Shown here one piece after another: positions 45,735 through 60,723 of a stretch of 60,854 nt of DNA (positions are counted from its first letter, which is position 1; each line of letters starts with the position of its first letter). The notes under the pieces are model-generated. The model was given only the letters and a program-made list of their open reading frames with translations, searched no databases and was not told where the DNA came from. The DNA comes from Orenia metallireducens (lineage in GTDB: Bacteria > Bacillota > Halanaerobiia > Halobacteroidales > Halobacteroidaceae): positions 157,970 to 218,823 of the forward strand of contig NZ_LWDV01000009.1 of assembly GCF_001693735.1 (NCBI RefSeq), in the 5' to 3' direction. The position numbers were made by a program, and so were the translations under genes.

Positions 45735-45804
45735 TGAAGGATAAAATAGAAAGTTATACATACTGTACTAAAAGTTTCTGATAATAGATAAAATTAAATA
45801 TAAA

Positions 45805-46000
45805 AGTTAGGTGCCTTTAGAGATATCTAAAGGAGAATAGGGAATCAGGTGTAAATCCTGAACGGACCCGCCACTGTAACTAGTAACTTACTTAATAGTC
45901 GATAAAGACTATTTTACTTAGATTCTTGTACCACTGGATTAATAATCTGGGAAGGTAGAGTTTAATTGCTAGAAGTCAGGAGACCTGCCTAATTTTTAAG
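45805..46000 (+). ncRNA. Cobalamin (AdoCbl) riboswitch
   Basis: Conserved blocks in order: AGTTAGGTGCCTTTAG, AGAATAGGGAATCAGGTGTA, GGACCCGCCACTGTAA, and the B12 box AAGTCAGGAGACCTGCCT (about 45972-45990). A terminator follows at 46107. It shuts down the downstream cobalt-uptake remnant and, if transcription still runs through, the cbi genes when adenosylcobalamin is plentiful. Confidence 0.96.
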
Positions 46001-46106
46001 CTTACTTAATCTTCGGGAGTAAAGAGAAGTAAGGGGACTATTTTATAGGGATAAGTATATCTAGACTGATATTTATATGTAGGATATATTTCAACTTGTA
46101 TTTATT

Positions 46107-55375: not shown

Positions 55376-55442
55376 TTTTAGCATAGGAATTAATTATAGA
55401 CACACAAATTTGAAATTATATAAAAACTTAAAATTATTTTTG

Positions 55443-55522
55443 CCACGGATTTTTACAGATTAGTTCTCAAAAATATATTTTTGTTCTTTACCTGTGTTTC
55501 ATCTGTGTCAATCTGTGGCTAA
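55443..55522. repeat. 'CCACGGATTNACACAGAT' repeat, two-armed
   Basis: CCACGGATTTTTACAGATTA at the left and, inverted, CATCTGTGTCAATCTGTGG at the right around an AT-rich loop, giving an imperfect hairpin of about 80 nt just before the small leftward gene. Confidence 0.7.
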
Positions 55523-55915: not shown

Positions 55916-56515
55916 TTGAGTAGATTAATTTTAGTTTTAGGTGGAGCAAGAAGTGGTAAGAGTAGCTTTGCTGAAGAGATAGTTGCTAAACTAGGCGGTT
56001 TAGATGTTACCTATTTGGCTACTTCAGAAGTCAGGGACCAAGAGATGAAACAGCGGGTACAGCTTCATCGGTGCTCTAGACCAAGGGAATGGACTACTAT
56101 CGAGGAACCTAAGAGTATAGGTGAGGTTTTAGCTAATCTAAAGCAAGGCGCAGTGGTGTTATTAGACTGCTTAACCTTGTTGATTTCAAATCTATTATTG
56201 GAAGAGCAAGAGCTTGGAGAAGATGAATATGATTTTAGTGAAAAAGATAAGGAAGAGGTTATTGTTGAAGAAATCGAAAAGATTATTGCAGAAGTTAGAA
56301 AGAGGAATTTAACTTTAGTAATAGTCTCTAATGAGGTCGGGCAAGGTTTGGTACCACCATATAAATTAGGGAGAGTCTATCGAGATATTGTTGGTAGAGC
56401 CAATCAATTAGTGGCTAGTGAAGCTGATGAAGTCTATATTACTTATGTAGGATTACCAATAGAGATTAAAGAATTAGGAATGAAAGTTAAAGAGCAATTT
56501 ACAATTGAAAATTAA
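55916..56515 (+). CDS. cobU: Adenosylcobinamide kinase / adenosylcobinamide-phosphate guanylyltransferase
   Basis: 199 aa bifunctional enzyme of nucleotide-loop assembly. P-loop LVLGGARSGKSSFAE at residues 6-20, the guanylylated His in QLHRCSRPREWTT, the Walker B-like VVLLDCLTLLISN, and VSNEVGQGLVP. It starts at TTG 55916, 8 nt after AAGGAG. Confidence 0.95.
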   Translation: MSRLILVLGGARSGKSSFAEEIVAKLGGLDVTYLATSEVRDQEMKQRVQLHRCSRPREWTTIEEPKSIGEVLANLKQGAVVLLDCLTLLISNLLLEEQELGEDEYDFSEKDKEEVIVEEIEKIIAEVRKRNLTLVIVSNEVGQGLVPPYKLGRVYRDIVGRANQLVASEADEVYITYVGLPIEIKELGMKVKEQFTIEN

Positions 56516-56533: not shown

Positions 56534-56644
56534 GGTACAGACTTATACAGATTAACACAGATGGGCACAGATAAAAAATTAAATTAGAGAATTAAAAATA
56601 GGGGTTTAATTAGTGTAAATCCGTGAATATCCGTGGCAAAAAGA
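56534..56644. repeat. 'CCACGGATTNACACAGAT' repeat, two-armed
   Basis: ATTAACACAGATGGGCACAG at the left and, inverted, GTGTAAATCCGTGAATATCC with CCGTGGCAAAA at the right, between cobU and the first cbiP. Confidence 0.7.
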
Positions 56645-56708
56645 TTATTTTTAAATTTTATTTAATATTAATTTCTGTCAATTGTAAATTGAACGTGGAG
56701 GTGAATTA

Positions 56709-58232
56709 ATGGCTAATTCGATTATGTTACAGGGGACCTCATCAAATGTAGGTAAGAGTATTCTAGCTACAGCACTTTGCCGTATCTTCTCCCAAGATGG
56801 TTATCAGGTTGCTCCCTTTAAATCTTGGAATATGGCATTGAACTCTTATGTAACGGCAGATGGTGGTGAGGTTGGGCAGGCTCAGGCGATTCAAGCTGAT
56901 GCAGCAGGTATTGAGATTAGTGTAGATATGCAACCTTTTTTAATTAAGCCTAAGGGAGATGGTCAATCCCAAGTCATAGTCAGAGGAAGACCCTTAGGTG
57001 ATTTTGGAGTTGATCGGAAGAATCCAGAGTATATTGAATGGGCGATGGAGATTATAGATGATTCTTTGCAGAGATTATCTTCTGAATATGAACTAATAGT
57101 TTTGGAAGGTGCCGGAAGCCCTGCTGAGATAAATATCAAAGATAAGGATATCGCCAATATGAAGGTAGCGAAATTGAATCAAACTCCAGTATTATTGGTA
57201 GCTGATATTGACCGAGGAGGAGCACTAGCAGCAGTTGTAGGAACCTTGAAGTTACTTGAGACAGAGGAGAGAGCTTTGGTCAAGGGAGTTATCTTGAATA
57301 AATTCCGAGGTGATTTTGAGCTATTAAAATCTGGTGTTGAGATTCTAGAGGAGAAGATAGGTAAACCTGTCTTAGGTGTAATACCTTATTTAAAGGATAT
57401 CAGAATTCCAGAAGAGGATTCGGTCTCTTTGGCTGACTTTTGTAAGGAAGAAGGAGAGGTTGAGATCGGAGTAATTAATTTACCCCATATCTCTAACTTT
57501 ACTGATTTTGACCCTTTAGGTTATGAAATAGGAGTAGAGCTTAATTATTTAGAAGCAGATGCCAAATTAGATAACTATGATGCTATTATACTCCCTGGGA
57601 CTAAGAATACCATCTTTGATTTAAATTATCTCCATACCAGTGGACTAGCAAGGAAGATAATTGCTCAAGCCAATGCTGGTAAGACTGTAATAGGTATCTG
57701 TGGTGGTTATCAGATGCTAGGGAAGAAGTTAGTTGATCCAGATTTAGTAGAAGGCAGGATTAGTCAGATGATAGGCCTGGGTTTGTTGGATATAGAGACC
57801 ACCTTTAATAGAGAGAAGGTAACCCATCAGGTTATAGGCAGAGTTTCTAGTGATTTGGGCTTCTTTAAAAGTTTGAAGAATCAAATAGTAACAGGTTATG
57901 AGATTCATATGGGCGATACTAAACTTGGTGATAATACTCAACCTCTTTTTAGGATAGAATCTCGTTCTAAAGAGAAAGTTGATATTCTCGATGGTACTTA
58001 TAATCCAAACCTTTCAGTCTGGGGAACTTATCTCCATGGAATCTTCGATAATGATAATTTTAGAAGGTCGTTTGTCAATTCCTTACGGAGGGAGAAGGGG
58101 TTAACAGAGGATTGTTATTCTAGTAGAAGTTCTTTAGAAGAGAGTTACGATAAATTGGCTGAGATTATTAGAGATAATTTAGATATGGATAAAATTTATC
58201 AGATTATAGAAGAGGGTGAGATTAAAGGCTAA
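56709..58232 (+). CDS. cbiP: Cobyric acid synthase, copy 1
   Basis: 507 aa; ATP- and glutamine-dependent amidation of corrin side chains (b, d, e, g). P-loop QGTSSNVGKSILATALCRIF, VADIDRGGALAAV, class I glutaminase Cys in VIGICGGYQMLG and His in GTYLHGIFDN are all present. The normally conserved FKSQNMALNS reads FKSWNMALNS (Trp for Gln), and the residues after GRPLG diverge from the usual pattern. Overlaps copy 2 by one base (TAATG). EC 6.3.5.10. Confidence 0.93.
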   Translation: MANSIMLQGTSSNVGKSILATALCRIFSQDGYQVAPFKSWNMALNSYVTADGGEVGQAQAIQADAAGIEISVDMQPFLIKPKGDGQSQVIVRGRPLGDFGVDRKNPEYIEWAMEIIDDSLQRLSSEYELIVLEGAGSPAEINIKDKDIANMKVAKLNQTPVLLVADIDRGGALAAVVGTLKLLETEERALVKGVILNKFRGDFELLKSGVEILEEKIGKPVLGVIPYLKDIRIPEEDSVSLADFCKEEGEVEIGVINLPHISNFTDFDPLGYEIGVELNYLEADAKLDNYDAIILPGTKNTIFDLNYLHTSGLARKIIAQANAGKTVIGICGGYQMLGKKLVDPDLVEGRISQMIGLGLLDIETTFNREKVTHQVIGRVSSDLGFFKSLKNQIVTGYEIHMGDTKLGDNTQPLFRIESRSKEKVDILDGTYNPNLSVWGTYLHGIFDNDNFRRSFVNSLRREKGLTEDCYSSRSSLEESYDKLAEIIRDNLDMDKIYQIIEEGEIKG

Positions 58233-59746
58233 TGGCTAAGACGATTATGTTTCAAGGTACAGGATCTCATGTGGGTAAGAGTGTTTTAACCTCTGCTTTA
58301 TGTAGAATCCTAGTAGAGGATGGCTATCAGGTTGCCCCTTTCAAATCTCAAAATATGGCTTTAAACTCTTATGTCACCAAAGCTGGTGGGGAGATTGGGC
58401 GGGCTCAAGCAGTACAGGCTGAAGCAGCAAAGGTAGAAGCAACAGTAGATATGAATCCTATTTTATTAAAGCCTACAGAGGATATTACCTCCCAAGTGAT
58501 TATCCATGGTAGAGTAGTTAAGAATATGACTGCACAGGAATATTTTAATGACAATTTATTTGGATTAACAGCAATTAAAGAGTCTTTAAGTAGGCTTAAA
58601 GAAGAGTATCAGATAATTGTGATAGAAGGGGCAGGTAGTCCTGCAGAGGTAAATTTGAGGGACTTTGATTTAGTCAATATGAGAGTGGCTAAACTGGCAA
58701 CTGCCCCTGTTATCTTGGTAGCAGATATTGACCCTGGGGGAGTATTTGCCAGTATTATCGGAACCTTTGAGTTATTAAATGAGGAAGAGAGAAGTAGGAT
58801 TAAAGGGATTATTATCAATAAGTTCCGTGGTGAAGTTAAGAGGCTAAAGAAGGGGATAGATTATCTAGAGAAGGAGACTGGGGTGCCAGTCTTGGGGGTA
58901 ATTCCTTATTTTAAAGGTTTTAAAATTCCAGAAGAGGATGCTATTCCAAACTATATTCAAGGTAGTAAGGATTATCAGCTAGAGATTGGAATAATTAGTT
59001 TGCCCCATATTTCTAACTTTACAGACTTTGATAGCTTAGTCCAAGAGCCTGGGGTTAGAGTTCGCTATCTTAAATCAGATAATAAGCTAGAAGGGTTAGA
59101 TGCAATTATTTTGCCTGGGACTAAGAATACCCTTGAGGATTTGGAGTACCTTTATCAGAGTAAGGTTGCAGAAGAGGTTATTAAAAGAGCTAGAGCAGGA
59201 ACTATGGTGATTGGAATCTGTGGTGGTTATCAGATGTTAGGGAAGAGCATCTATGACCCTTTTCAGGTAGAATCCAAGAAAGAAAATATTGATGGTCTAG
59301 GGCTACTAGATGTGATAACTACCTTAGAGCAGCAGAAGACTACAAGCCAAGTTAAGGCTAAATTGCTTTTTAAGGATATCTTCAGTGAGGAATATGAAGG
59401 GGTATTAGAGGGGTATGAGATACATATGGGTCAGAGTAAATTGGGTGCAGAAAGCAGTCCTTTGTTAGAGATAATTAATCAGTCTGGAAAAGAAAGCTCT
59501 ATCATAGATGGTGCTTACAATCAAAGAGGAAATGTCTGGGGAACCTATCTCCATGGTATCTTTGATAATGACCACTTTAGAAGAAGTTTTATTAATAAAT
59601 TAAGAGCCAATAAAGGCTTAGCCCCTATCAAATCCACGCCTTTTAATGTTAGAGCTGAGAGGGAGCAGGTTTATGATAAATTAGCTCAACTAGTTAGAGA
59701 GAATCTAGATATGCAGAAGCTATATCAGATTATGGGAGTGGAGTAA
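58232..59746 (+). CDS. cbiP: Cobyric acid synthase, copy 2
   Basis: 504 aa, collinear with copy 1 and clearly paralogous. P-loop QGTGSHVGKSVLTSALCRIL, the canonical FKSQNMALNS, glutaminase Cys in VIGICGGYQMLGKS and His in GTYLHGIFDN. It deviates in the other conserved site: VADIDPGGVFAS, with Pro where the family has Arg (DIDRGG). The segment after the P-loop domain (GRVVKNMTAQEYF) is closer to ordinary CbiP than copy 1 is. cbiB follows after 2 bp. Confidence 0.93.
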   Translation: MAKTIMFQGTGSHVGKSVLTSALCRILVEDGYQVAPFKSQNMALNSYVTKAGGEIGRAQAVQAEAAKVEATVDMNPILLKPTEDITSQVIIHGRVVKNMTAQEYFNDNLFGLTAIKESLSRLKEEYQIIVIEGAGSPAEVNLRDFDLVNMRVAKLATAPVILVADIDPGGVFASIIGTFELLNEEERSRIKGIIINKFRGEVKRLKKGIDYLEKETGVPVLGVIPYFKGFKIPEEDAIPNYIQGSKDYQLEIGIISLPHISNFTDFDSLVQEPGVRVRYLKSDNKLEGLDAIILPGTKNTLEDLEYLYQSKVAEEVIKRARAGTMVIGICGGYQMLGKSIYDPFQVESKKENIDGLGLLDVITTLEQQKTTSQVKAKLLFKDIFSEEYEGVLEGYEIHMGQSKLGAESSPLLEIINQSGKESSIIDGAYNQRGNVWGTYLHGIFDNDHFRRSFINKLRANKGLAPIKSTPFNVRAEREQVYDKLAQLVRENLDMQKLYQIMGVE

Positions 59747-59748
59747 CT

Positions 59749-60723
59749 ATGACAGAAGAGTTGATATTACTTATAGCAGTAATAATAGATTTAATAATCG
59801 GTGACCCAGACTTCTATCCGCATCCAGTAATCATTATAGGAAAGGCTATTACCTTCTTAGAAAAAATCTTTAGAAAGTTAGTTAGAAGTAAAAGTGGTGA
59901 GAGAATAGCTGGTCTGATTTTAGCAGTTTTAATAATTATTTTAACTTTTATGATATCTAAAGCAATCATCTATTATTCATATGAAATCAATTATTATTTA
60001 GGATTAGTGATCAACATCTGGTTGTTATCAACTACTATTGCTATTAAAGGCTTGGTGCAAGCTGGACTTAGAGTCTATCATGGATTATTAGCAGGAAATT
60101 TAGACTTGGCACGAAAGCAGTTGGGATGGATTGTAGGCAGAGATACCGATAATTTAGTAGAGGGGGAAATAGTTAGAGGTACTATTGAAACCCTTGCTGA
60201 GAATACCAGTGATGGGGTAATAGCCCCTATCTTTTATGGAATGCTCGGTGGCTTTCCTTTGGCTATGACCTATAAGGCGATTAATACCCTTGACTCGATG
60301 CTAGGCTATAAGAATGAGAAGTATCGTTATTTTGGTTGGGCAGCAGCTAGGATAGATGACTTAGCCAATTGGATTCCAGCTAGGATAACGGCTTGCTTAT
60401 ATATATTAGCTGCTTTAATTAGAGGTAAGGATTGGAGAAGTGCTGTTAGGATTATTGTAAGAGATGCTAAGAAGCACCCTAGTCCCAATGCTGGATATCC
60501 CGAAGCGGCTATAGCAGGGAACTTGAATATCCGTTTAGGTGGGTTGAATTATTATCAAGGAGAAGAGAGTTTTAGAGCTTATTTAGGTGATGCCAAGCAA
60601 GAGTTTGATAAAGAGCAGATTAAAGAGACAATCGGTTTGATGTATTGGAATGTGGGATTGTTTTTATTAATTTATTATTTGATTAATTTTGGTTCTTCCA
60701 CGACTTTTGTGAAAATAATTTAA
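59749..60723 (+). CDS. cbiB: Adenosylcobinamide-phosphate synthase
   Basis: 324 aa integral membrane protein (CbiB/CobD), joining the aminopropanol linker to cobyric acid. Motifs: DLIIGDPDFYPHPVIIIGK at the start, the conserved GRDTDNLVEGEIVRGTIETL followed by AENTSDGVIAPIFYG, YKAINTLDSMLGYKNEKY, and HPSPNAGYPEAAIAG. About four to five membrane helices. Last gene in the window; cobS and cobT are not seen here and may lie beyond the edge. Confidence 0.96.
   Translation: MTEELILLIAVIIDLIIGDPDFYPHPVIIIGKAITFLEKIFRKLVRSKSGERIAGLILAVLIIILTFMISKAIIYYSYEINYYLGLVINIWLLSTTIAIKGLVQAGLRVYHGLLAGNLDLARKQLGWIVGRDTDNLVEGEIVRGTIETLAENTSDGVIAPIFYGMLGGFPLAMTYKAINTLDSMLGYKNEKYRYFGWAAARIDDLANWIPARITACLYILAALIRGKDWRSAVRIIVRDAKKHPSPNAGYPEAAIAGNLNIRLGGLNYYQGEESFRAYLGDAKQEFDKEQIKETIGLMYWNVGLFLLIYYLINFGSSTTFVKII

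Follow-up and report, generated by a model that had tools for sequence, protein, structure and literature searches.

Orenia metallireducens has two adjacent genes of the cobyric acid synthase (CbiP) family, designated here cbiP1 and cbiP2, that form an old pair, and no recent redundant duplication, and have been kept side by side; the pair is genuine and represents a conserved variant of an enzyme already known. One CbiP normally performs all four amidations (b, d, e, g) of adenosylcobyrinic acid a,c-diamide and, as the explanation that we favour, albeit tentatively, CbiP1 and CbiP2 may be a specialised heteromeric pair that shares these amidations at the stage between CbiA and CbiB. The window, the whole 60,854-nucleotide stretch of DNA that was analysed, has the pair together with cobU and cbiB in a long run of cbi/cob genes, downstream of a riboswitch that probably controls the run.

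45792-46006, + strand: cobalamin riboswitch upstream of the cbi/cob gene run (Rfam RF00174, 109.7 bits)
55916-56515, + strand: cobU, upstream neighbour of the cbiP pair (PF02283, NF004469)
56709-58232, + strand: cbiP1, W-type cobyric acid synthase paralogue with a synthetase and a glutaminase domain, 507 aa (ORF, Pfam, NCBIfam, copy-1 clade, omega 0.116)
58232-59746, + strand: cbiP2, canonical Q-type cobyric acid synthase paralogue, 504 aa (ORF, Pfam, NCBIfam, copy-2 clade, omega 0.132)
59749-60723, + strand: cbiB, downstream neighbour of the cbiP pair (PF03186, TIGR00380)

Base 58232 is common to the TAA stop codon of cbiP1 and the ATG start codon of cbiP2 and, as the first-pass annotation had it, two full-length copies overlap by this one base. 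Their products are 53% identical, and these are the only CbiP genes in the source genome. The adjacent cbiB encodes the pathway step that follows cobyric acid synthase. The earlier statement that there is no cbiA proved to be an effect of the window edge; cbiA (G000:C9:219143-220585) follows cbiB in this gene run, lying 320 bases outside the window, which ends at C9:218823, and has on its 3′ side genes that, as we read their sequences, resemble cobA, cobS and genes for an aminotransferase and heme/siroheme enzymes. A 32-nt inverted repeat, 81% complementary, is present in the gaps that flank cobU (55430-55461 and 56618-56649).

Both proteins have the Pfam domains CbiA and GATase_3, and both exceed the equivalog cut-offs of the CbiP/CobQ models, with 620.7 (CbiP1) and 652.9 bits (CbiP2) for NF001989 (cut-off 273) and 570.2 and 578.2 bits, respectively, for TIGR00313 (cut-off 309.9). 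Cobyrinic acid a,c-diamide synthase (CbiA/CobB) has a domain architecture that matches both copies, but they score only 77.7 and 69.0 bits, far below the cut-off of 261.4, with its model TIGR00379, and a separate cbiA is present next door. The comparison of the two families proposed with the first-pass annotation thus identifies both copies as CbiP and neither as CbiA, and the low CbiA scores and the presence of cbiA rule out that one copy replaces cbiA. Like other CbiP/CobQ enzymes, the copies are full length, with two domains and in a cbi/cob context, but that enzyme is normally encoded by one gene and here by two, and CbiP1 differs further in having a Trp in place of an otherwise invariant Gln, in lacking Tyr104 and in a residue switch at position 173. 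The P-loop and the glutaminase Cys and His were correctly recognised at the outset as retained in both copies. CbiP2 also has the remaining invariant residues, FK-x-QNM and EGAG. As CbiP1 is without the invariant Gln of FK-x-QNM, it is described here as a family paralogue with putative activity.

56826-56828, + strand: codon for Trp40 of CbiP1 (FKSWNM), diagnostic of copy 1 (W in 29/29 copies 1)
58349-58351, + strand: codon for Gln40 of CbiP2 (FKSQNM; ORF translation, residue counts)
58733-58735, + strand: codon for Pro168 of CbiP2 (DIDPGG), a variable position and no conserved loss (residue counts)

The residue at position 40 separates the copies completely, with W in all 29 copies 1, and Q in all 23 copies 2 and in all 113 other CbiPs from many phyla; the pair-bearing families outside the class (f12, f77 and f129) agree with this division. 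The residues at the second site highlighted originally, R169 in CbiP1 and P168 in CbiP2 at the Arg of DIDRGG, were also read correctly, but their interpretation, together with position 40, as reciprocal losses does not hold. R, K and P all occur at this position, also in single-copy enzymes; the 113 other CbiPs have R (89), K (21), P (2) or C (1), copies 2 have K (12), R (9) or P (2), and among copies 2 the Pro is confined to the source organism and one congener. This variability rules out reciprocal active-site losses. Tyr104 is kept in 112 of the 113 other CbiPs but is missing from nearly all copies 1, and Ala149/Val148 also distinguishes the two copies. Two residues before the latter is an Asp, which in four of the five enterobacterial CbiPs compared corresponds to residue 146; the remaining one has an extended N-terminus. 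Mutation of D146 in the Salmonella CbiP is reported to partly randomise the order of amidation. All fixed differences between the copies are in the synthetase domain and none are in the glutaminase domain. A match to the W pattern in G133 lies in no CbiP and was dropped.

Of the 59 genomes searched within the class, 24 carry both copies, 7 carry only copy 1 and a further 8 contain one CbiP; copy 2 never occurs by itself. Two of the 24, G034 and G042, have the synthetase domain only, and six of the eight single CbiPs are in the tree outside both clades described below, with those of the incomplete G055 and G056 left unplaced. Outside the class the pair is present in families f12, f77 and f129 (8 genomes), and an even sample across the phylum shows just one copy in nearly every other genome that encodes a CbiP. 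In all 32 genomes with the pair, which include at least one named organism among the matches listed, Halanaerobacter jeridensis DSM 23230, copy 2 immediately follows copy 1 and shares its strand, with a gap of -44 to 125 nt (median 2), and the genes around the pair differ between genomes. In G059 (L051:6161-9544) and G350 (L220:8089-11420) the pair is outside a cob operon, in G059 between thiamine-like genes and zwf/gnd-like genes in a genome without a CbiA match. Besides its pair (L046, G049:C95), G049 has part of a further CbiP gene beside cbiA (G049:C10:1-471), where a contig ends; this is either a third copy or an assembly effect.

A tree and a check of relatives, as had been suggested, revealed that the pair is common to the 32 genomes and that copies 1 and copies 2 group into separate clades, with SH-aLRT values of 92 and 92 in the wider set and 86 and 99 in the first set. 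The internal branching of the two clades is similar, and a sister relation between them is possible, with 84% in the first tree and a p-AU of 0.256. The copies 1 from family f7 and G016 are nested within the copy-1 clade and copy 2 has therefore been lost there; a cobU-cbiP1-cbiB gene order, lacking cbiP2, agrees with this loss. Based on simple counts (Nei-Gojobori with Jukes-Cantor correction), omega relative to the closest congener is 0.116 for cbiP1, 0.132 for cbiP2 and 0.09-0.19 for the neighbouring genes. Both copies are under purifying selection and neither is drifting. A recent redundant duplication is ruled out by the tree and this constraint. The first-pass annotation had regarded one copy as simply redundant if it were missing in close relatives and unconstrained and the other alone gave full complementation; copy 2 is missing from some relatives, but the constraint on the copies is equal (0.12 and 0.13). 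It is very improbable that redundant copies are kept for gene dosage: although the P-loop and glutaminase residues are present in both copies in most genomes, the class and three families beyond it have retained the two together, and these are equally constrained and carry residues fixed for each paralogue.

57225-57227, + strand: codon for Leu173 of CbiP1, a residue that is Leu in paired copies and Phe in the absence of CbiP2 (residue counts)
58745-58747, + strand: codon for Phe172 of CbiP2, the counterpart of Leu173 in CbiP1 (residue counts)

Residue 173 of CbiP1, two residues after the GG of DIDRGG, is L in all 31 paired copies 1 and F in all seven unpaired copies 1, from three lineages. 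The equivalent residue is F in 29/29 copies 2, and Leu and Phe are about equally frequent in other CbiPs. The position was picked by scanning for differences in copy 1 where copy 2 has been lost, and the match is therefore post hoc. On the full-length tree, residue 173 changes twice, exactly at the losses of copy 2; G043, the third case, sits on a long branch and is perhaps not independent of the others, giving two to three events in total. As a control, 78 lineage pairs were compared and a shared change to the copy-2 state was found only in f7 plus G016. Pair genomes without cbiA or cbiD (G002, G005, G053, G059 and G332) retain Leu173, and the switch therefore goes with the disappearance of copy 2 rather than with that of the pathway.

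In genus g116 (G152 and G332), neither copy has a glutaminase domain, and copy 2 is without the Lys of the P-loop and the Lys of the FK loop, both of which CbiP1 of this genus keeps. Given these losses copy 2 of g116 is presumably inactive, and yet purifying selection persists, with omega values of 0.175 for copy 2 and 0.191 for copy 1. Conservation along this copy 2 is uneven; residues 158-232, which include the Phe, keep 29 and 28 of 36 conserved positions, whereas residues 33-157 keep 22 and 24 of 56. Retention of an inactive copy 2 beside a live copy 1 would be expected if the chains form a complex to which copy 2 lends residues 158-232. The CbiP2 sequences at L111:7609-8418 and L217:1490-2296, which have neither lysine and are under purifying selection, are likely pseudo-enzymes beside a live CbiP1. 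The glutaminase domain is missing from both copies together in two families. CbiP homologues of ~265-325 aa without this domain are encoded at L039:7639-9355, L041:5177-6872, L111:6656-8418, L217:1490-3237 and L042:7745-8602. CbiA is the sole strong GATase_3 match in the genomes of G034, G042 and G152, and their glutaminase-less CbiPs may therefore use free ammonia.

In the class, CbiA is found in all 24 genomes with both copies and in none of the seven with copy 1 alone, of which three are <90% complete, and some pair genomes keep CbiA but are without CbiD. In the copy-1-only loci examined there is a gene for a periplasmic binding protein with a BtuF-type fold (Peripla_BP_2) and there are no genes of de novo synthesis, and these loci therefore look like ones for corrinoid salvage. 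The absence of CbiA from ~10% of the genomes with a single Q-type CbiP in the phylum sample means that to find a CbiP but no CbiA is not in itself unusual. The main rival to a heteromer draws on this pattern and accounts for the CbiA correlation better than the heteromer does: the copies would be two homomers acting in sequence, CbiP2 taking over from CbiA for the early amidations and CbiP1 completing the series, with bacteria that salvage corrinoids already amidated in part keeping only a CbiP1 whose specificity is broadened by the change from Leu173 to Phe. That the correlation persists where CbiD is missing, the gene content of the CbiP1-only loci and the proximity of Ala149/Val148 to the Asp aligned with enterobacterial residue 146 are all in its favour. 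It leaves unexplained, however, a copy 2 that is retained in g116 without its key lysines, two genomes outside the class (G059 and G332) have both copies although no CbiA match was found in them, and the losses number only two to three independent events; we consider this reading possible but rather doubtful.

The same salvage loci, in which CbiP1 alone is retained, are compatible with CbiP1 having taken on a different corrin substrate or a repair role, such as re-amidation of salvaged corrinoids after loss of amides, which would leave CbiP2 alone as the ordinary synthase. CbiP2 does keep all canonical residues where CbiP1 has W40 and no Tyr104, but CbiP2 alone, as expected if it were sufficient, occurs in none of the class genomes searched, and in g116 the key lysines are gone from CbiP2 and kept in CbiP1. 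A new substrate or a repair role for CbiP1 is therefore unlikely. Of the guesses made in the first-pass annotation, divided work and a heterodimer gain support from the universal pairing, the switch at position 173, the inactivated yet conserved copy 2 and the joint absence of glutaminase domains, and another corrin substrate has less support.

How a heteromeric pair might be built is suggested by predicted folds, which have a mean pLDDT of 90 for each of CbiP1 and CbiP2. The CbiP1 model has a dethiobiotin-synthetase-like domain (Z 19-20) joined to a GatD-like glutaminase (Z about 20). A sequence search of the PDB found no full-length CbiP structure; those entries that carry the name 'cobyric acid synthase' are glutaminases of the GatD type. 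The glutaminase domain is related to that of the MurT/GatD lipid II isoglutaminyl synthase, in which, however, the glutaminase is a separate subunit and the synthetase partner is of another kind. Dethiobiotin synthetase (BioD), on which the synthetase domain models, binds its substrate between two subunits (PMC8659263) but, unlike CbiP, is a homodimer with one substrate and no glutaminase domain.

In a CbiP1:CbiP2 heteromer with synthetase sites located between the chains, as in dethiobiotin synthetase, Trp40 of CbiP1 would face the Phe172 segment of CbiP2 in one site, Gln40 of CbiP2 would face the Leu173 segment of CbiP1 in the other, and the two sites would handle separate subsets of the side chains. 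By analogy with BioD and its structure, residues 40 and 173 of opposite chains would be in one pocket. Such composite pockets would account both for Phe173 where CbiP1 pairs with itself, maintaining a Trp plus Phe site in lineages without CbiP2, and for the segment retained in an inactivated CbiP2. The complex, the pockets and the division of side chains are all inferred, and the complete model, a heterodimer with two unlike composite sites that shares the four amidations and in which one of the chains can lose its catalytic function and persist as a partner, is possible but more speculative than a specialised pair as such. The existence of CbiP1 alone in seven genomes demonstrates that CbiP1 is not always dependent on CbiP2, adjacency and short gaps are common in operons, and the Leu/Phe switch comprises two to three independent events; all of these count against a heteromer. 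Nevertheless, the switch at position 173, the conserved degenerate copy 2 and the joint loss of glutaminase domains point to a specialised, perhaps interface-sharing, pair.

In the open-licence papers searched we found no earlier description of such a pair, and one may exist elsewhere. To our knowledge, little is understood of the means by which a single CbiP recognises four different side chains and does so in a fixed order. The pair is of more interest than first described, partly for other reasons, as a split enzyme with W40, a switch at position 173 and a lysine-less variant provides handles on which part of the enzyme picks which side chain.
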